From an uncultured Porphyromonadaceae bacterium (GTDB lineage: Bacteria > Bacteroidota > Bacteroidia > Bacteroidales > Muribaculaceae): 42,468 nucleotides of DNA. The notes beneath the pieces were generated by a model. That model had not been told where the DNA came from, did no database searches, and saw only the letters and a list, made by a program, of their open reading frames with translations. The stretch covers positions 1 through 42,468 of the forward strand of contig CAMWTJ010000011.1 of NCBI GenBank assembly GCA_947177185.1, given 5' to 3'. Positions 3,547-42,468 of the stretch are shown here, piece by piece (positions within the stretch are counted from its first letter, which is position 1; every line of letters starts with the position of its first letter). A program made the translations under genes and the position numbers.

Positions 3547-4908
3547 ATGTTGATGAAACACATTGTACACTCTCTCCTGCTGATTATAGCCATCGCGGCC
3601 GGCGGCTGCATCGAGGACGGCTTCACGACGTCGCCCTCCGACGCTCCGCGCGCCAGCGCCGACACGGTGCGCCTGGGCACGGTGTTCACCGGGCGCCGCA
3701 CGCCCACGTTCCGCTTCACCATACGCAACGGAGCGTCGAAATCCGTGGCCATAAACTCCATGCGCCTGGCCGGGCAGCATGGCGGATGCTTCCGCCTGTG
3801 TGTCGACGGCATGAGCGGCGACGAATTCTCCGACGTGGAAATCCGCGCCAACGACTCCATACTGGTGCTCGTCGACGCCCTGCTGCCGCCCAACGGCGAC
3901 ACAAAGCCCGTGGAGTACGCCGCCACAGTCGACTTCGAGGCATGCGGCGTGCAGCGCAGCGTGCGCCTGGAGGCGCAGGGACGCGACGCCGTGGCCCTGG
4001 AAGCGCTCACACTCACGGCCGACACACGCCTGACAGCCGAACGCCCTTACATAGTCACCGACAGCCTCGTCGTGGCGGCCGGCGCCACACTCACCATAGA
4101 CCCCGGAGCTGAACTGTGCTTCCACGACGGCTCCTACCTGCGCGTGTACGGTGCCCTGCACTCGCTCGGCACAGCCGCACAGCCGGTGAGCATGGCCGGC
4201 GACCGCACCGGCAACGTCGTGGCCGACATATCGTTCGACATCATGAGCCGCCAGTGGGACGGCGTGTACCTGACCGACGCCACGGCGCCGAGCCTGATAT
4301 CGCACACCGACATGCGCAACACCTGGGACGGCCTCGTGGCAGCCCGCTCGGCCGTGGAGCTTCTCAACAGCCGCCTGCACAACTCGGCCGGCTATGCCCT
4401 ATACTCGATAGGCAGCGACATCGACGCCGTGGGCTGCGAATTCGCCGAAGGCGGCGCCGGGCTGGTGCGCCTCGAAGGCGGCACGGGGGTGTTCAACCAC
4501 TGCACGTTCGCCAACAACTATCTGTTTGCGGCCATCGGCGGCCCTGCCATCGATTTCGCCGACCCGGCCGAGCTCTCGGCGCGCATCACCAACAGCATCA
4601 TATACGGACTTGGCGACGACCTCAGCCACGGCGACCTCAAGGACACCGACATAAGCCTCGAGCGCTGCCTGCTGCGCAGCGCAGGCACGGACGACGACCG
4701 GTTTGTGCGCTGTCTGTGGGACACCGACCCGATGTACTACACCGAGCGGCAGGCCTACGTGTTCGACTACCGCCTGCGGCCCGAATCGCCCGCGCGCGAA
4801 GCGGCAGACCCCGCGCTGACCGACCCTCGCGCAGCCGTCGACGCCTACGGCACGCCGCGCTCCGCCACCCCCTCGCTGGGCGCCTACGAGTGGACTCCGC
4901 GCGATTAG
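3547..4908 (+). CDS. Beta-helix surface lipoprotein
   Basis: This is a predicted secreted lipoprotein of about 453 residues. The signal peptide ends at a lipobox (AAGGC, Cys21 from the first ATG, or Cys19 if the second ATG at 3553 is used). Residues about 40-135 look like an Ig-like domain. From about 150 onward the sequence has the pattern of a right-handed parallel beta-helix, with turns such as AGATLTIDPGAELCFHDGSYLRV and a closing SLGAYEW. Such proteins in Bacteroidales are usually outer-membrane-anchored and may bind or cleave polysaccharide, but no catalytic residue set can be pointed to here. It starts one base after folK, though a link in function to folate synthesis is not expected. 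A GC-rich 118-base spacer follows. Confidence 0.8.
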   Translation: MLMKHIVHSLLLIIAIAAGGCIEDGFTTSPSDAPRASADTVRLGTVFTGRRTPTFRFTIRNGASKSVAINSMRLAGQHGGCFRLCVDGMSGDEFSDVEIRANDSILVLVDALLPPNGDTKPVEYAATVDFEACGVQRSVRLEAQGRDAVALEALTLTADTRLTAERPYIVTDSLVVAAGATLTIDPGAELCFHDGSYLRVYGALHSLGTAAQPVSMAGDRTGNVVADISFDIMSRQWDGVYLTDATAPSLISHTDMRNTWDGLVAARSAVELLNSRLHNSAGYALYSIGSDIDAVGCEFAEGGAGLVRLEGGTGVFNHCTFANNYLFAAIGGPAIDFADPAELSARITNSIIYGLGDDLSHGDLKDTDISLERCLLRSAGTDDDRFVRCLWDTDPMYYTERQAYVFDYRLRPESPAREAADPALTDPRAAVDAYGTPRSATPSLGAYEWTPRD

Positions 4909-4983
4909 ACCCGGCCGCGCCGGCGCCGCATTACAACTGCGTTAAAAATAAATAAACACGCGGGAAATACGCACCAAATGCGT

Positions 4984-4991
4984 TATATTTG
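4984..4991 (+). promoter_or_regulatory. Bacteroidetes -7 element upstream of rubrerythrin
   Basis: TATATTTG matches the TAnnTTTG consensus exactly. The predicted transcript start near 4995-4996 leaves a leader of about 30 bases before the ATG at 5027. No good TTTG -33 element is seen at the usual spacing. Confidence 0.6.
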
Positions 4992-5026
4992 TATTGTCAA
5001 AATAATTCGCAAATTCAAGTGAAGTT

Positions 5027-5578
5027 ATGAACAAGAAATTTATCTGCGTCGTTTGCGGCTACGTGCACGAAGGCGCTGAAGCTCCCGAAAAATGCCCCAT
5101 CTGCGGCGCTCCCAAATCGAAATTCAAGGAACTCGACACTGAAGCCGAACTCCAGTTCGTGACCGAACACGAAATCGGCGTGGCTAAGGACACCGACGAA
5201 GAAATGATCAAGGACCTCACCGCACATTTCAACGGCGAGTGCGGCGAAGTGGGCATGTACCTCGCAATGGCACGCCAGGCCGACCGCGAAGGCTATCCCG
5301 AAGTGGCCGAAGCCTTCAAGCGCTACGCGTGGGAAGAAGCCGAGCACGCTTCCAAGTTCGCCGAACTGCTGGGCGAATGTGTGTGGGACACCAAGACCAA
5401 CCTCGAAAAACGCATGGCAGCAGAAGCCGGCGCCAACGCCGACAAGATGCGCATAGCCAAGCGCGCCAAAGAACTCGGCCTCGACGCCATCCACGACACC
5501 GTGCACGAAATGGCCAAGGACGAAGCACGCCACGGACAGGGTTTCCAGGGTCTTTACAACCGTTTCTTCAAGAAATAA
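5027..5578 (+). CDS. Rubrerythrin with N-terminal rubredoxin domain
   Basis: This is a peroxide-scavenging diiron protein of 183 residues. The rubredoxin iron site comes first, with C7-x2-C10 and C23-x2-C26. The ferritin-like helical domain follows and contains the Glu/His ligands ([28 protein letters not shown]). This domain order is the reverse of classical Desulfovibrio rubrerythrin and is typical of 'reverse' rubrerythrins of anaerobes, which reduce hydrogen peroxide with electrons from NAD(P)H-linked donors. The gene has its own promoter and ends in a bidirectional terminator, so it is probably a single-gene unit. Its convergent neighbour is a LysR regulator, but that protein lacks the cysteine pair of OxyR. 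Confidence 0.93.
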
Positions 5579-5600
5579 ACCCGCACTCCGCGCAAACACA

Positions 5601-5644
5601 AAAAAACGACGCTTCCGCCGACAGCGGAGGCGTTGCTTTTTTTT
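5601..5644. terminator. Bidirectional terminator between rubrerythrin and the LysR gene
   Basis: A 10-base stem (5609-5618 with 5624-5633, one G-T wobble) with a 5-base loop is flanked by an A-run at 5601-5606 and a T-run at 5637-5644. It can stop transcription arriving from either side. Confidence 0.88.
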
Positions 5645-5665
5645 GTGCGCGCACGCGAGTGCGGC

Positions 5666-6568
5666 TCACAGCCACGAATTCACGCGCCGGCGTATGGCCG
5701 CCGAGTCGTTGAGCAGGCGCACGAACTCCTTCATGGAGCGCTTGTGGTAGGCGTCGCGCAGGGTGTGCACGCAGCCGTCCATCTCGTTTTCGGGCAGCGC
5801 CAGCGGTATGGCGCGCACGCCGGACTCGTCGTTGATGGTGGCCTCTGCGAGCACGGTGGCGAGGCGGTTGCAGCGTATGAGCTTGAGCAGTATGTTCACC
5901 TCGTTGAGCTCCACACGCACGCGCAGCTCGGTGGGATAGCGCTCCAGAAGGGCCTCGAGCATGTTTCGCGCCTGCAGGCCGCGGGCAGGGAGGGCCAGGT
6001 CGTGGGCGGCGAGCTGCTGCAGAGTCACCGACGGCAGCGCGGCCAGCGGATGGTCGGGGCTCACTATCACCGACAGGCGGTTCTGAAACAGCACGTGCGA
6101 CACCACATCGGCCGGCTGGCGGTAGGGTTTGAACGCAAGGGCGAAATCCACCCTGCGCTGCGCGAGCATGTCCATAAGCTCGGCCATCGGACGGTAGAAG
6201 ATGTTGAGCTTCACGCGCGGATACAGTTTCATGAATTCGACGAGCGTTTCGGTGAGTATCGGGCTGAACGAATACGTCACGCCTATGTTGAGCGTACCGG
6301 CCAACAGCTCGTTCAGGTCGTTGACACGGTCGCGGCACAGCTCGGCCGATGCCAGCGTGCGCTGCGCGTATGGCAGCAGTTCCTCGCCGGCTTCGGTCAG
6401 AGCCACCGTGTGGCTCGTGCGCTCGAGCAGCGGTGTGCCCAGGTCCTGCTCAAGCTGCTTTATCTGCTGCGAGAGGGTGCTCTGCGTTATGAACAGTGCC
6501 TTGGCCGCCTCGGAGAAATTGAGCGTGCCGGCCAGGGTCACGAAATACTTTAACTGACGTAGTTCCAT
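5666..6568 (-). CDS. LysR-family transcriptional regulator
   Basis: This 300-residue DNA-binding regulator has an N-terminal winged helix-turn-helix (MELRQLKYFVTLAGTLNFSEAA through TQSTLSQQIKQLE, residues 1-60) and a periplasmic-binding-protein-like effector domain from about 90. The opening resembles the CynR/CbbR-type branch. Its cysteines (78, 233, 266) do not form the OxyR redox pair, so peroxide sensing is not supported despite the adjacent rubrerythrin. It has its own -7 element 22 bases upstream. The target and effector are unknown. Its neighbours on the same strand are the ThrE-type exporter genes, which end 36 bases upstream. Confidence 0.9.
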   Translation of the reverse strand: MELRQLKYFVTLAGTLNFSEAAKALFITQSTLSQQIKQLEQDLGTPLLERTSHTVALTEAGEELLPYAQRTLASAELCRDRVNDLNELLAGTLNIGVTYSFSPILTETLVEFMKLYPRVKLNIFYRPMAELMDMLAQRRVDFALAFKPYRQPADVVSHVLFQNRLSVIVSPDHPLAALPSVTLQQLAAHDLALPARGLQARNMLEALLERYPTELRVRVELNEVNILLKLIRCNRLATVLAEATINDESGVRAIPLALPENEMDGCVHTLRDAYHKRSMKEFVRLLNDSAAIRRRVNSWL

Positions 6569-6589
6569 CTTCTATGCGGTAGATTGGTG

Positions 6590-6597
6590 CAAAGTTA
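6590..6597 (-). promoter_or_regulatory. -7 element for the LysR gene
   Basis: TAACTTTG (reading leftward) matches TAnnTTTG exactly and lies 22 bases before the LysR ATG. It sits between the LysR gene and the end of the exporter gene upstream. Confidence 0.6.
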
Positions 6598-6604
6598 CGC
6601 TTTT

Positions 6605-7096
6605 TTACTCATGACGGCGCATGGCCGTGAACGATATTTTCTTCATCATGAACACCGGCACGGTGGCGCCTACGGCCATCGACAGCAGAATGAAGAAGCA
6701 TGTGAGCCCGTTGTGGGCGAACAGATAGAAGTAATGGCCGAACGAGGCCTCGCCGCCGTGGTACAGACACATCACCAGCCCGCCGAAGGCGCGGTAGGCG
6801 TATATGCCGGGTATCATGGGCAGCAGCGACGGATACAGATATGTTTCGGCAGGCACGCGCGAGCGCGGCGATATCAGCACCGCCAGCACGCCTATGAGCA
6901 GCGATGCCAGCGCCGTGGCCACCACTATGTGCAGCCGCAGCCCCGTGCCTTCCATGAGCAGAAAACGCGTGGAGTGGCCCGCGGCGGCTATCACGGCGCA
7001 GTACAGATAGGCCCGGCGCGGCGGGTTGCTGATTGCGGCAAATCCGATAGCCGCTATCGCCGAAAACAATGCATCCTGAAAAAAATCCATCCACAT
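6605..7096 (-). CDS. Threonine/serine exporter, small membrane subunit (ThrE_2/YjjB-type)
   Basis: This 163-residue integral membrane protein has about five hydrophobic helices. It matches the YjjB/ThrE_2 half of the ThrE exporter, with PSLLPMIPGIYAYRAFGG as the recognisable segment. In many bacteria the single-chain ThrE of Corynebacterium is split in two. The other half is the next gene upstream (20 bases apart, same strand). Together they likely export small amino acids or, as reported for the E. coli YjjPB pair, succinate. Substrate choice cannot be told from sequence. A second ATG at 7090 is an alternative start. Confidence 0.85.
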   Translation of the reverse strand: MWMDFFQDALFSAIAAIGFAAISNPPRRAYLYCAVIAAAGHSTRFLLMEGTGLRLHIVVATALASLLIGVLAVLISPRSRVPAETYLYPSLLPMIPGIYAYRAFGGLVMCLYHGGEASFGHYFYLFAHNGLTCFFILLSMAVGATVPVFMMKKISFTAMRRHE

Positions 7097-7115
7097 GGCA
7101 GTATGTGTTTAGAAT

Positions 7116-7898
7116 TCAGAACATGCCCACGTTCATGAGCATCATGCCGGCGCACAGACCGATGGACAGGCAGCCGGTGATCACGAGCGCGTCAGTGAAC
7201 CGACCGAAAGCGCATATGTAGTGGCGGTCGAGCATGTCGCTGAACGAGTTTATAAATGGTATGCCGGGCACGAGATACAGCACGCTTGTGCCTACGGCTA
7301 TCTCGGGCGTGGCGCCGAGGCCGAACAGACCGTCGGCGCCGGCAAGCACCGACGACACAAACGAGCAGGCAATGACCGTGAGCCGGAAATCGGCGTGGCG
7401 TGCGGCCATGAACTGGCGCAGGGCGAAACCGGCCAATGTGGCGCCGAACACCACGGCCATGGCCACTGCATCGCCGCCGAACAGGCGGCAGAACGCCGCA
7501 TTGGCCACCGACGCGAGCAGTAGCACCAGCAGGCGGTCCTCGCCCCGCATGCCGGCAATGGCGCTGAAGCGCCTTACGGCCTCGGCGAAGCCCACAGTGC
7601 CGTCGGCCACGTCCCAGCTAAGGCGGCTGAGCGCCGCGTTCACAGCGAAGCTGAGGGAACAGTCGCTTATGGCCGCTATCGACGTGTACAGCTCTCCGCC
7701 GCCCTGAGCCACCACCGACAGGTGGATATGGCGCGGAAACACCGCTACCTCCACCTGCATGCCGAAGGCGGCGCCGATGCGGCGCACGTTCTTCTCAAGG
7801 CGTATGCACGTGGCGCCGCTGCCCAGGAGGCGCGCAGCGTAGTCGGCCAGAAACGTGCACATCTCGCGCGCCGTGGGCGCGTCAGTCCTCGGGGTCAT
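7116..7898 (-). CDS. Threonine/serine exporter, large subunit (ThrE/YjjP-type, DUF1212)
   Basis: This is the larger half of the split ThrE-type exporter, about 260 residues. A cytoplasmic N-terminal domain (FLADYAARLLGSGATCIRLEKNVRRIG) is followed by about five membrane helices containing LVPGIPFINSFSDML. The ATG at 7898 was chosen because it overlaps the last 17 bases of the small upstream gene, an arrangement typical of translational coupling. The longer frame opening at 7937 would bury most of the upstream gene's tail. It is followed after 20 bases by the YjjB-type half. A role in amino-acid or dicarboxylate export at the inner membrane is inferred from the family. Confidence 0.85.
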   Translation of the reverse strand: MTPRTDAPTAREMCTFLADYAARLLGSGATCIRLEKNVRRIGAAFGMQVEVAVFPRHIHLSVVAQGGGELYTSIAAISDCSLSFAVNAALSRLSWDVADGTVGFAEAVRRFSAIAGMRGEDRLLVLLLASVANAAFCRLFGGDAVAMAVVFGATLAGFALRQFMAARHADFRLTVIACSFVSSVLAGADGLFGLGATPEIAVGTSVLYLVPGIPFINSFSDMLDRHYICAFGRFTDALVITGCLSIGLCAGMMLMNVGMF

Positions 7899-38263: not shown

Positions 38264-38953
38264 GTGCACACTCTCCGCCGCCTGCTCTCCGCCCTGCTCC
38301 TGACCGTAGCCGCCACCGCCGCGGCCGACGCCCAGGAAGCGCCCTACCGCTTCGACATCGGAGCCGACTTAGGCATGAGCGGCTACATAGGCGAAGCCTC
38401 GTCGTCGGTGTTCGCGCATCCCGGATTCACGGCCGACCTCTCCATGCGCTACATACCCAACGTGCGCATGGCCTTCCGAGGCATGCTGTCGGTGCAGGGA
38501 CTCAGCGGCACCACCGACGCACTCGCCGACGCACTGCCCGCAGGCATGGAGCCCGTCAGCTTCACAGCCACAGCCTATGCGCTCGACCTGCGCTACGAAT
38601 TCAATTTCCTGCCCTACGGCATAGGCGAAACCTACAAGCGCCTGCGCCGCTTCACACCCTACCTCACCATAGGCCTCGGACTCGGCATAAGCTCGTCGGG
38701 CGGCCACACCGCCGTGGCGCCGCTGCTGCCCATGGGCCTGGGCGTGCGCTACAAGCTGGGCAAGCGCCTGAACCTCAATGCCGAATTCACACTCACCAAG
38801 TCGTTCAGCGACAAATTCGACGGACCCGCGCTCAACGACCTGAACCAGATCAAGACCGAATTCTACAAAAACACCGACTGGTATTCGCGCCTCACCATAG
38901 GCATCTCCTACGAATTCGGAGAGCGCTGCGCCACCTGCCACTACGTGGACTGA
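38264..38953 (+). CDS. DUF6089-type outer-membrane beta-barrel protein
   Basis: This 229-residue protein has a GTG start, a signal peptide (MHTLRRLLSALLLTVAATAAADA) and alternating-residue beta strands typical of a small outer-membrane barrel (FDIGADLGMSGYIGE, YALDLRYEFNFLPYG, TPYLTIGLGLG, RLTIGISYEFGER). The ending CATCHYVD, with two closely spaced cysteines, is a family-like tail. It may support envelope assembly, which is an inference. It lies 10 bases after the DUF6242 gene and 37 bases before the DUF4062-NTPase gene. Confidence 0.82.
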   Translation: MHTLRRLLSALLLTVAATAAADAQEAPYRFDIGADLGMSGYIGEASSSVFAHPGFTADLSMRYIPNVRMAFRGMLSVQGLSGTTDALADALPAGMEPVSFTATAYALDLRYEFNFLPYGIGETYKRLRRFTPYLTIGLGLGISSSGGHTAVAPLLPMGLGVRYKLGKRLNLNAEFTLTKSFSDKFDGPALNDLNQIKTEFYKNTDWYSRLTIGISYEFGERCATCHYVD

Positions 38954-38990
38954 CCCCCGCGCCCGCCCTCCCCGACGGCACACCCCTACC

Positions 38991-41774
38991 ATGAATCCCG
39001 ACACCGCCGGCACCATACGCATATTCATATCCTCCACTTTCAAAGACCTGGAAGCGGAACGCGAACACCTGCGCACGCATGTGTTCCCGCGGCTGAGAGC
39101 TGCCGCCGCACGGCGCGGAGCCACGCTCGCCACGGTCGACCTCAGCTGGGGCATCACCCGGCAGCAGTCGCGCTCGGGCAAAGTGCTGGAGATATGCCTG
39201 CGCGAAATTGAAAACTCGCGGCCGTTCTTCATAGGCATCATCGGCAGGCGCTACGGCTGGCGGCCATCGGCGGGCGAACTGAACAAAAACGCGACGCTGC
39301 GCGAGCGCTACGGCTGGCTCGCCGACGACATAAAGCGGGGGCTGAGCATCACCGAGATGGAGATGCAATACGGCGCGCTGCGCAACCCCGACTTGCTCGC
39401 GGCATCGTTCTACATCAAAGAAAACACCCGCCGGCGACGCACACTCGCCGACACGCTGCGCGATGCGTGCAGCCTCTTTTCGGCAAGCGGCAAGCGGCTG
39501 AAACGGCTGAAGACGGCCGTGCGCGACAACGGCCGCTACCCGGTGCGCGCGTTCGCCGACCCCGACGAGCTCGGCCGCCAGGTGGAGGCCGACTTCATGG
39601 CCATGCTCGACCGCCGTTTTCCGCATGCGGAGCTATCGCAGCTCAACGCCGTGCGCCTCGCGCAAAAAGCGTTCGTGCGCGACAGATGCGGCATCTACAT
39701 CGACGTCGCTGCCAACAGCGCCATGCTCGACCGATGGCTCGACAGCGGCAGCGGCGCGCTCGTCGTCACATCCGCTCCGGGCATGGGCAAGAGCGCTCTC
39801 ATAGCCAACAGGCTCGCGCGCGGCAAGGAGAGCGCAGGGCGGCGCATCTGCTATTTCATAGGCCACGGGGGCCTCGAAGGCGACCACAAAGCCATAGCCA
39901 TGCACCTATGCAGTGAAATCTGCGGCCTTTACGGCTTCGACGGCGCGCAGCATCAGCACGACGCCTGCGAGCAGCTGGCCGTGCTGTGCGCGCAGATACC
40001 CGCGCACGAGCCGCTGCTCATCGTGCTCGACGGTCTGGACAGCCTGGATGCGTCGCCGCAGGCACGCAGCCTCGACTGGCTGCCTATGCCCTCGGACAGC
40101 GTGCGCTTTGTCTTTACGGCACACGACGGTTCGCCAGTGCTCAAAACGCTCGACCGCCGCGGATGCGAGCGCGCGCGGCTCCACCCCCTCGGCCGCGAGG
40201 AGCGACTGCTGCTCGTGCACGAGGTGCTGAAAAAAGCCTACGGAAAAAGCATCGACCCCGACCTTGCGCGACGCATAGCCGGCGACGACGAAAGCGCCAA
40301 CACACTGGTGCTGCGCTCGCTGCTCGACGAGCTGGCGGCCCATGGCCGCAACGCCACACTCGCCGCGCGCGTGAACCATTATCTGAAAGCAAAGTCTTAC
40401 GACCGCTTTTTCGAACTCGTGCTCGCGCGTTTCGAAAACGATTTCGGACGCGACACCACAGAGCGGCTGCTGGCTCCGCTCGCCTTCTCGCGCTCGGGAC
40501 TCCAGGAGGACGAACTGCTCGCTATATCCGGCCTCACGCAGCTGCAGTGGTCGCAGTTCTACTGTGCGTTCATGCCTTACCTTACGCGCTGCCGCGGTCT
40601 GCTCGGTTTCTCCAACCGATACGTGCGCGACGCCGCACGTACCCGCTATGCCGCCGCCGAGGCCGACAGCCGCAGCCACATAGCCGCCCTCTTCGCCGGA
40701 CGCACCGACGCACGCGCGTGCCATGAGTTACCGTGGCAGCTGCACGCCACGGCCCGACACCGCGAGCTGTACGCCTTCCTGCTCGATTTCGAGGTGCTGG
40801 CGCGGCTGTGCGGCACCGACGAGGTGCAGCTGGCCCGCTACTGGCGCCTGCTGACCGCCCGCGACAAGGAAGTCTTCACGCCCGCGGCATATCTCGACAT
40901 GCCGTGCGAAGACAGCGAGGCGCACATACGCCTGCTCGGCTTTCTCGGCCATCTGGCCGCCGACCATCTGACCGACGGCCCGCTCGCGCGTCGCTTCCAC
41001 GACAAAGCGCTCACCATGGCCATAAACCTGTACGGCGCCGACAGCATCGAAGCCGCGGCGGCCCACAACAACAAGGGCTGCATGCTCCACAGCCTTGGCG
41101 AATCCGAACGGGCGCTCCAACACCACCTGCACGCGCTGCGCATATACGAATCGGCAGAGCGGAACTACGACGTGGAAATAGCGGCCACGCACAACAACAT
41201 CGGACTCGCCTCGGCCGCGGATGAGGAGCACTCGCGCCGGCATTTCGAAAAGGCGCTCGCCCTGCTCGACGGCGGCAAGCGAGGGTACAGCTATTTCAAA
41301 GCCACCGCGTGCAACAACCTGGCCAACGCACTTCGCGACGAGGGCATCCACGACCGTGCGATACAGCTCTACGAGCGCGCGCTGGCCGAACTGGAACGCG
41401 CCAAGGGCCCTGACCACCCGGACGCGGCCTCCATCAAAAACAACATGGGACGGCTCTATAGCACTGCCGGCGACACAGCCGCAGCCATGGAAACGCACTT
41501 TGAGGCGCTGCGCATATACAAAGCCACGTATGGCGACAGCCACCCCGACGTGGCCGTAACGCTCTCGCACCTCGGCGCCCTGTGCCGGCAGGCCGGACAA
41601 AGCGACGAGGCACTGCGGTATCTGCACGAAGCGCTGCGCATCTTCATCGCGACATGCGGCGAGAGGCATCACGAAACCGCGCGCTGCTACCACAATCTCG
41701 GTGTGATTTATGCCGATGCGGGGCGCATGGCCGAAGCCATGCAGTTCCTGTCGAGAGCGTTCGACTTGCGCTGA
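38991..41774 (+). CDS. DUF4062-P-loop NTPase-TPR protein (NPHP3/TEP1-like STAND ATPase)
   Basis: The 927-residue protein has three parts. (1) Residues about 9-92 form a DUF4062 domain with IRIFISSTFKDLEAEREHL, VDLSWGIT and FFIGIIGRRYGW, the same motifs as in eukaryotic NPHP3, TEP1 and NWD1. (2) A P-loop NTPase has Walker A SAPGMGKS (261-268; the first Gly is Ser) and Walker B LLIVLDGLDSLD (342-353), then a winged-helix-like region with SRSGLQEDELLAISGL. (3) Six kinesin-light-chain-type TPRs at exactly 42-residue spacing run from 685 to the C-terminus. STAND proteins are usually switches that bind a ligand through repeats. The effector and ligand are unknown. No partner gene is obvious. Confidence 0.88.
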   Translation: MNPDTAGTIRIFISSTFKDLEAEREHLRTHVFPRLRAAAARRGATLATVDLSWGITRQQSRSGKVLEICLREIENSRPFFIGIIGRRYGWRPSAGELNKNATLRERYGWLADDIKRGLSITEMEMQYGALRNPDLLAASFYIKENTRRRRTLADTLRDACSLFSASGKRLKRLKTAVRDNGRYPVRAFADPDELGRQVEADFMAMLDRRFPHAELSQLNAVRLAQKAFVRDRCGIYIDVAANSAMLDRWLDSGSGALVVTSAPGMGKSALIANRLARGKESAGRRICYFIGHGGLEGDHKAIAMHLCSEICGLYGFDGAQHQHDACEQLAVLCAQIPAHEPLLIVLDGLDSLDASPQARSLDWLPMPSDSVRFVFTAHDGSPVLKTLDRRGCERARLHPLGREERLLLVHEVLKKAYGKSIDPDLARRIAGDDESANTLVLRSLLDELAAHGRNATLAARVNHYLKAKSYDRFFELVLARFENDFGRDTTERLLAPLAFSRSGLQEDELLAISGLTQLQWSQFYCAFMPYLTRCRGLLGFSNRYVRDAARTRYAAAEADSRSHIAALFAGRTDARACHELPWQLHATARHRELYAFLLDFEVLARLCGTDEVQLARYWRLLTARDKEVFTPAAYLDMPCEDSEAHIRLLGFLGHLAADHLTDGPLARRFHDKALTMAINLYGADSIEAAAAHNNKGCMLHSLGESERALQHHLHALRIYESAERNYDVEIAATHNNIGLASAADEEHSRRHFEKALALLDGGKRGYSYFKATACNNLANALRDEGIHDRAIQLYERALAELERAKGPDHPDAASIKNNMGRLYSTAGDTAAAMETHFEALRIYKATYGDSHPDVAVTLSHLGALCRQAGQSDEALRYLHEALRIFIATCGERHHETARCYHNLGVIYADAGRMAEAMQFLSRAFDLR

Positions 41775-41968
41775 CAAGACGCAGGTTTTGCGGGTTAAAG
41801 TTTGTGTTCGCCCGGCCCGACGCGCCCGCAGCCTGCGAAGGCTTCCACCTCACCGTGATACAGCCCTGAGCCACGCCCGCGCTGGCGCAACCGGCACCGC
41901 GGCGGGGACAAAAAACACGGCACGACGCTTTTTCCGGCGGTTTTTAACCAAATTGTCGGGGAATTTGT

Positions 41969-41976
41969 TAACTTTG
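41969..41976 (+). promoter_or_regulatory. -7 element immediately before hflX
   Basis: TAACTTTG matches TAnnTTTG exactly and ends four bases before the ATG at 41981. The expected transcript start therefore falls at or next to the A of the ATG. The spacer 41775-41968 before it holds no gene and no convincing terminator. Confidence 0.6.
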
Positions 41977-41980
41977 TATC

Positions 41981-42468
41981 ATGAAAGAATTCGTTATCAG
42001 CAAAGAAACCACCGAGCGTGCCGTGCTCGTAGGGCTTGTGACACCCCAGCAGGGCGAAGCGCGCGTGCAGGAATACCTCGACGAGCTGGCCTTCCTGGCC
42101 GACACCGCCGGCGCCCACACCGTGGCGCGCTTCACGCAGAAGCTGGACTATCCGAACCCGCGCACATTCGTAGGCAAAGGCAAGCTGGAAGAAATCAAGG
42201 CTTATGTAGAGGCCAACGAAGTGGGCATGGTGATTTTCGACGACGACCTGTCGACCAAGCAGGTGAGCAACATCGAGCGCGAGCTGCAGGTGAAAATCCT
42301 CGACCGCTCGAGCCTCATTCTCGATATTTTCGCAAAACGCGCGCAGACGGCCATAGCCAAGACACAGGTGGAGCTGGCCCAGTACCAGTATCTGCTGCCG
42401 AGGCTCACACGCATGTGGACACACCTCGAGCGCCAGCGCGGCGGCATAGGCATGCGCGGCCCCGGCGA
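41981..42468 (+). CDS. hflX: GTPase HflX, N-terminal part (runs off the window)
   Basis: HflX is a ribosome-splitting GTPase active under stress. The visible 162 residues cover the HflX N-terminal domain (LVGLVTPQQGEARVQEYLDELAFLADTAG, FTQKLDYPNPRTFVGKGKLEEI, VIFDDDLSTKQVSNIER and the DRSSLILDIFAKRAQTAIAKTQVELAQ helix). They end in RMWTHLERQRGGIGMRGPG, just before the G domain. The start at ATG 41981 agrees with other Bacteroidetes HflX proteins. The 3' end is cut by the window edge. Confidence 0.95.
   Translation, partial: MKEFVISKETTERAVLVGLVTPQQGEARVQEYLDELAFLADTAGAHTVARFTQKLDYPNPRTFVGKGKLEEIKAYVEANEVGMVIFDDDLSTKQVSNIERELQVKILDRSSLILDIFAKRAQTAIAKTQVELAQYQYLLPRLTRMWTHLERQRGGIGMRGPG

Follow-up and report, generated by a model that had tools for sequence, protein, structure and literature searches.

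A bacterial STAND receptor resembling NPHP3 and TEP1, with a predicted NADase head, encoded on a Muribaculaceae contig

The stretch of DNA analysed here, referred to as the window, comprises all 42,468 nucleotides taken from contig CAMWTJ010000011.1 of an uncultured Porphyromonadaceae bacterium, and its gene at 38991..41774 encodes a real, intact, NPHP3/TEP1-like bacterial receptor of the signal transduction ATPases with numerous domains (STAND) type with a predicted NAD+-hydrolysing (NADase) head. Three modules are present in the protein: an N-terminal effector of the DUF4062 family with a Toll/interleukin-1 receptor (TIR)-like fold, a central NTPase with Walker A and Walker B motifs, and a C-terminal sensor made of tetratricopeptide repeats (TPR), which is the plan of STAND and nucleotide-binding leucine-rich repeat receptor (NLR)-like proteins. 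We think that the protein is, on balance, a single-gene NLR-like abortive-infection (immune) switch. Phage-defence switches of this kind are only now gaining recognition, and this gene comes from a gut bacterium and follows a plan like that of animal and plant immune receptors.

Modules of the window protein and comparison with known systems

The gene and its parts, all on the + strand, are as follows.

38991..41774, +: whole gene of the DUF4062-STAND-TPR protein; intact open reading frame (ORF), ATG start, 927 amino acids
39012..39617, +: TIR-like DUF4062 domain, residues 8-209 (Pfam 10-96; TEP1 domain 11gz_A; AlphaFold2 model; fold search)
39360..39362, +: codon of E124, the predicted catalytic Glu, aligned to TEP1 E1008 (Glu conservation in the alignment)
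39708..40190, +: NACHT/NPHP3_N-type NTPase core, residues ~240-400 (Pfam, motifs, AlphaFold2 model)
39771..39797 and 40014..40040, +: Walker A and Walker B, inside the NTPase core
40194..40910, +: helical, winged-helix-like and second helical regions, putative parts of the STAND module, residues ~402-640 (AlphaFold2 secondary structure)
40917..41768, +: predicted sensor, a kinesin light chain (KLC)-type TPR array whose seven helix pairs span residues 643-926 (Pfam, AlphaFold2 model)

An earlier note on this DNA, made from the letters alone, had described DUF4062 motifs, Walker motifs and the order DUF4062-NTPase-TPR known from NPHP3 and TEP1, and all of these were borne out. The DUF4062 motifs begin at residues 12 (FISSTFKDLEAER), 49 (VDLSWGIT) and 82 (GIIGRRYGW), Walker A (SAPGMGKSA, including K267) at residue 261 and Walker B (LLIVLDGLD) at residue 342. 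Pfam assigns DUF4062 to residues 10-96 (E 3.6e-16, 59.6 bits against a cut-off of 24.7), NPHP3_N to residues 245-355 (25.9 bits against 24.8) and the repeats to TPR_12 (E 1.3e-43) and TPR_10 (E 1e-31); the NACHT model stays under its cut-off (20.0 against 26.7). Taken as a set, these Pfam and motif matches lie far beyond chance.

The full-length AlphaFold2 model (predicted local distance difference test score, pLDDT, 86.3; 30 sequences) consists, in order, of an alpha/beta head, the NTPase, helical and winged-helix-like parts, and the TPR helix pairs; on this model, residues ~402-640 can be read as STAND subdomains. The best match in the PDB is 6mfv, a STAND protein with a TPR sensor (E 1.1e-9), and antiphage Avs3 (8dgc) and Avs5 (9jap) are among the top 15. 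A PADLOC search of the window protein matched no curated defence model except a generic TPR one (E 6.4e-6).

The solved domain of human TEP1, 11gz_A, matches residues 8-175 of the head (E 1.9e-23). As judged by a fold search with the AlphaFold2 model of the DUF4062 part (pLDDT 89.7), the head is TIR-like, and it also resembles nucleotide-hydrolase (NDT-like) domains, with DNPH1 and MilB as top structural matches; TEP1 entry 11gz is absent among the matches listed from a library ending 2026-04-08. E124 aligns with the catalytic E1008 of TEP1 and is Glu in all 86 rows of the alignment (84 distinct proteins, many phyla). The corresponding residue of KpSwz is E97; the catalytic Glu is placed here by alignment to TEP1, the KpSwz sequence being outside the alignment. 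DUF4062 has been described as a TIR-like NADase family, with an antiphage role in bacteria as Swarozyc and activity in human TEP1 (PMC13174449, a bioRxiv preprint of May 2026). Given the TEP1 match, the TIR-like fold, the invariant E124 and this published activity, the effector is probably an NADase, in line with the earlier proposal that DUF4062 is the effector.

Likenesses to four known systems come with clear differences. Swarozyc (KpSwz) shares the N-terminal TIR-like DUF4062 domain with its catalytic Glu, but continues into a phage-portal-binding AUX domain of the helix-turn-helix (HTH)/winged type (PMC13174449), where the window protein has a STAND NTPase and a TPR array; compared by description, the latter has no C-terminal AUX domain of this type. 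Human TEP1 likewise places DUF4062 beside a NACHT NTPase, but carries TROVE and WD40 and resides in the vault (PMC13174449), whereas the window protein ends in a TPR sensor and shows no connection with the vault, and neither TROVE nor WD40 is among the Pfam families listed for it at E 1. Human NPHP3 has the DUF4062-NACHT-TPR order, but is inactive as an NADase (PMC13174449), and its ciliary role does not apply here. The resemblance to NPHP3 is real, and the window protein misses two of three NPHP3 cut-offs: NPHP3_N is reached, TPR_NPHP3 scores 67.1 against 100 bits and NPHP3_hel is not listed at E 1. Finally, Avs3, Avs5/SIR2-STAND and bNACHT proteins share the tripartite effector-NTPase-sensor plan, as the structural matches above illustrate, but use SIR2 (9jap) or other known domains as effectors, in place of the DUF4062 found here.

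Distribution of relatives and evolution of the repeats

The presence survey suggested in the earlier note shows a patchy distribution across genus and family: DUF4062 is found in one copy in the source genome, in 8 of 49 genus genomes (source genome included) and in 36 of the 397 family genomes searched, 31 of these above the cut-off. Neighbours of the gene differ in the five other genus genomes compared. Naming some of the neighbours by recognition, we take the gene to lie beside a malic-enzyme gene in G019, to adjoin an alaS-like gene in G011, to be part of an apparent biotin operon in G013, and to stand between glycosyltransferase and Band_7 genes in G043. G064 provides a fifth, different setting, and in G012 and G006 the gene is on short or cut contigs. 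The DUF4062 proteins of G043, G019, G011 and G013 (1057-1559 amino acids) have TPR arrays, that of G012 has WG repeats instead, and in that of G064 no sensor was recognised. In a quick tree with several long branches, the window protein is placed in a group of Bacteroidales proteins (support 91), outside the clades of G043 and of G019/G011/G013.

Bacterial relatives are abundant: a scan of genome contigs confirmed at least 453 stretches, of which 79 loci from many phyla were kept. No relatives were found in viral contigs or, with residues 1-636 as the query, in phage records; two matches in plasmids are confined to the DUF4062 part. Near-copies occur across phyla (cores 86.8% identical in L158 and L167, 78.7% in L142 and L143), a pattern that misbinning could mimic. 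Among the 30 of 86 rows scanned with Pfam at E 0.001, window included, DUF4062 was detected in 30, TPR_NPHP3 in 29, NACHT in 26, NPHP3_N in 21 and NPHP3_hel in 14.

The earlier count of six TPRs of exactly 42 residues nearly holds: seven helix pairs are present in the model, the sixth of the listed units is 33 amino acids long, and the step from the second to the third unit is 40 in register, the units at 691 and 773 being separated by 82. We reject the recent expansion that had been read from this period: the Pfam TPR_10 model itself spans 42 amino acids, family members use this spacing more often than any other (227 of 442 spacings), and the units of the window array share only 0-38% amino acid identity in pairwise comparison. 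Because of this low identity, and because identity at third codon positions (0.30-0.50 against 0.37 expected) is near chance, we take the array to be old.

Younger arrays are found in relatives, with best within-array nucleotide identities of 0.96 (L149), 0.95 (L132), 0.94 (L196) and 0.93 (L135). Repeat number also varies between close homologues, as the earlier note had anticipated: L126 and L129, whose cores are 92.5% identical, have 8 and 12 detected units. Neither the same locus in all relatives nor a constant repeat number, two parts of the combination named in that note as speaking for a housekeeping role, was thus observed.

Changes between recent duplicates (55 non-redundant unit pairs with at least 80% nucleotide identity, from 14 homologues) were counted for a groove set, i.e., unit positions equated with TPR positions 2, 5, 9, 12 and 13 by eye from the consensus. 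This is the set of PMC1261162 minus positions 33 and 34, and the per-position counts were known before it was named. The proportion of nonsynonymous changes (pN) was 0.300 in the groove set and 0.068 elsewhere, that of synonymous changes (pS) 0.320 and 0.217, respectively; pN was higher in the groove set in 14 of 14 loci, and only 9 of 850,668 five-position sets had as many changes. The most frequent change sites were equated with TPR positions 12, 9, 2 and 13, which belong to positions described as part of the ligand groove (PMC1261162). Groove pN amounted to 1.3 times the overall pS (0.228), a ratio that rose to about 3 in L149 and L135, whose arrays are young. Over all pairs, groove pN was no higher than the pS of the groove itself, so these data do not prove positive selection. 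A small control, 17 pairs from five other TPR ORFs, behaved alike (0.280 in the groove, 0.093 elsewhere), which does not support groove-specific diversification as a special feature of the DUF4062-STAND-TPR family. The relatives therefore show recent repeat turnover with groove-biased change, and we claim no special selection regime. A parallel repeat pattern has been described for fungal NLRs (PMC4986451).

Other TPR ORFs with groove-biased change in young repeats were seen at L186 2-3319, L010, L131 8182-9632 and L165 ~4757-7468, several of them near receptors.

Proposed mechanism and rival readings

If the protein is an immune switch, its TPR array would sense a ligand, probably a phage protein, upon which the STAND NTPase would exchange nucleotide and oligomerise. 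The N-terminal TIR-like DUF4062 domains clustered in this way would switch on NAD+ hydrolysis via E124, and the infected cell would lose NAD+ and then die or stall before phage release. The ligand, oligomerisation, enzymatic activity and role of this protein are what we infer; NADase activity and antiphage action have been reported for other DUF4062 proteins (PMC13174449). In the literature examined, head activity and an antiphage role in relatives have been known since 2026, and the STAND-TPR form is the new part: the five proteins in the bacterial phage tests resembled one another in their C-terminal auxiliary domains, and the idea that NACHT drives the TEP1 NADase appears in the available text as speculation only (PMC13174449).

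Two observations count against an immune switch, or are neutral. No tested bacterial DUF4062-STAND-TPR protein was found in the available literature on DUF4062, STAND and NLR-like systems, and no such protein at all in the accessible parts of PMC13092281, PMC7159879 and PMC10907252, which deal with bacterial STAND, NACHT and related conflict systems. Furthermore, the subfamily does not seem to be concentrated beside known defence genes: among 124 directly flanking ORFs (120-1500 amino acids) of 77 non-duplicate homologue loci, some without an ORF in this range, PADLOC at E 1e-10 detected 23 families, each in at most two members, a count made with no background control.

Alternatively, the head of a STAND immune switch could make a signal molecule or cut another N-glycosidic substrate, the killing being left to an unlinked effector. 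The fold of the head is equally close to nucleotide hydrolases, with DNPH1 and MilB at the top of its structural matches, and some homologues have RyR, SLOG-like or RelA_SpoT genes as neighbours or, in several loci, a ~200-260-amino-acid gene after a ~1540-amino-acid subtype. The window gene, however, has no adjacent partner, and the products reported for KpSwz are ADP-ribose and nicotinamide, with no further ADP-ribose derivatives from the TEP1 TIR (PMC13174449); we consider such a head unlikely. It also seems improbable to us that the head is a catalytically silent oligomerisation or adaptor module in a regulator or scaffold, perhaps of the envelope or of secretion. Full-length NPHP3, NWD1 and NWD2 are indeed inactive as NADases (PMC13174449), and porG, a secretion gene, ends 37 bp upstream on the same strand, which makes co-transcription possible. 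Yet a catalytic Glu that is invariant over 86 rows and many phyla would be unusual for a dead enzyme, and no DUF4062 gene was found near porG in any of 18 genus relatives (flanks up to 1.5 kb), which argues against a conserved functional link between the two. That the same mechanism serves a conflict other than phage defence, such as plasmid exclusion, kin recognition or stress-induced death, is less likely still, as the bacterial DUF4062 proteins so far tested act against phage (PMC13174449).

If the immune-switch reading is true, it would tie together DUF4062 NADases, bacterial NLR-like defence, and human TEP1 and NPHP3. Consisting of one gene with no partner in evidence, the system would be directly testable in E. 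coli, and the varying TPR number in relatives supplies natural variants for ligand finding. A wider proposal, which we put forward tentatively and regard as rather doubtful, is that a TEP1-type TIR-like NADase, a STAND module and a KLC-type TPR sensor evolving by repeat gain, loss and groove change make up a widespread class of bacterial immune receptors, and that human NPHP3, a ciliopathy protein with this domain order, would be its descendant, with enzyme activity lost and switch and sensor kept.

Genomic site and neighbouring genes

The gene is flanked in the window by two genes, the second of which, like uppS and bamA below, was named by recognition of its protein.

38264..38953, +: porG (type IX secretion protein PorG), upstream neighbour, 37-bp gap, same strand (NCBIfam NF052316, 147.7 bits against a cut-off of 130)
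41981..42466, +: start of the presumed hflX, downstream neighbour, running off the contig

Accordingly, no partner or mobile gene lies beside the DUF4062 gene, as the earlier note had stated. The core-gene setting described there is right as to gene content; the gene order at the site differs from that in relatives. porG is present, with a kelch gene alongside, in all 18 genus relatives searched, and the presumed uppS directly follows it in all 12 larger relative regions (gap about -26 to +14 nucleotides), with the presumed bamA in the same stretch in the relatives examined. The source genome has this pair split between the window (38264-38990) and L121 (1262-4698), where uppS, on contig C56, is preceded by 1.26 kb in which no gene was called with confidence. 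Downstream, the DNA becomes similar to that of the closest relatives from ~41935-41981 onwards, and in the loci of 29 relatives none of porG, kelch or DUF4062 was found beside hflX in the flank examined. Since porG and uppS adjoin in 12 of 12 relatives and the DUF4062 gene follows porG here, we take its position to be a rearrangement break, a chimeric contig being the other explanation; with a single assembly, the porG/DUF4062/hflX junction may be a misassembly. GC content, overall and at third codon positions (GC3), is native, no tRNA or known RNA was found at the site, and a search for flanking direct repeats of an insertion gave nothing beyond a 9-base match.

Upstream of uppS, L121 (G000:C56) 1-1150 consists of ~1.15 kb of palindromic repeats with the core GGTGTCCGCAGGACACCGATTTC. 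Six contigs of the genome together carry 14 exact copies; in the window, the 17-base core was not found even when up to 3 mismatches were allowed.

Among homologues, the next upstream ORF carries a Pfam-verified RyR domain at L136 43-1725, L176 4682-6388 and L184 3448-6018, and the BLAST cluster of these genes is also upstream in L169, L181 (gap 1.4 kb), L185, L191 and L201. RyR proteins upstream of DUF4062-STAND genes carry TrkA_N, AAA, SLOG-like or RelA_SpoT domains. The RyR gene of the source genome was considered as an unlinked partner and gives no evidence of being one, because RyR occurs in 38 of 51 genomes, a sample made up of 7 from the genus and those to which 48 of the 79 loci led (L137 and L142 left out), often as stand-alone proteins of ~100 amino acids.

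A gene of ~200-260 amino acids directly follows the ~1540-amino-acid subtype at L071 6403-7122, L072 4478-5194 and L073 12672-13277, and further at L166 14565-15227, L180 5567-6340 and L195 13407-14057, the last three being recognisably related; it overlaps the larger gene in three loci, and four tested had no Pfam match. Related flanking proteins were also seen at L156 7508-9220, L165 13396-13932 and L204 7918-9765, one of them with weak SLOG/DprA-like matches.
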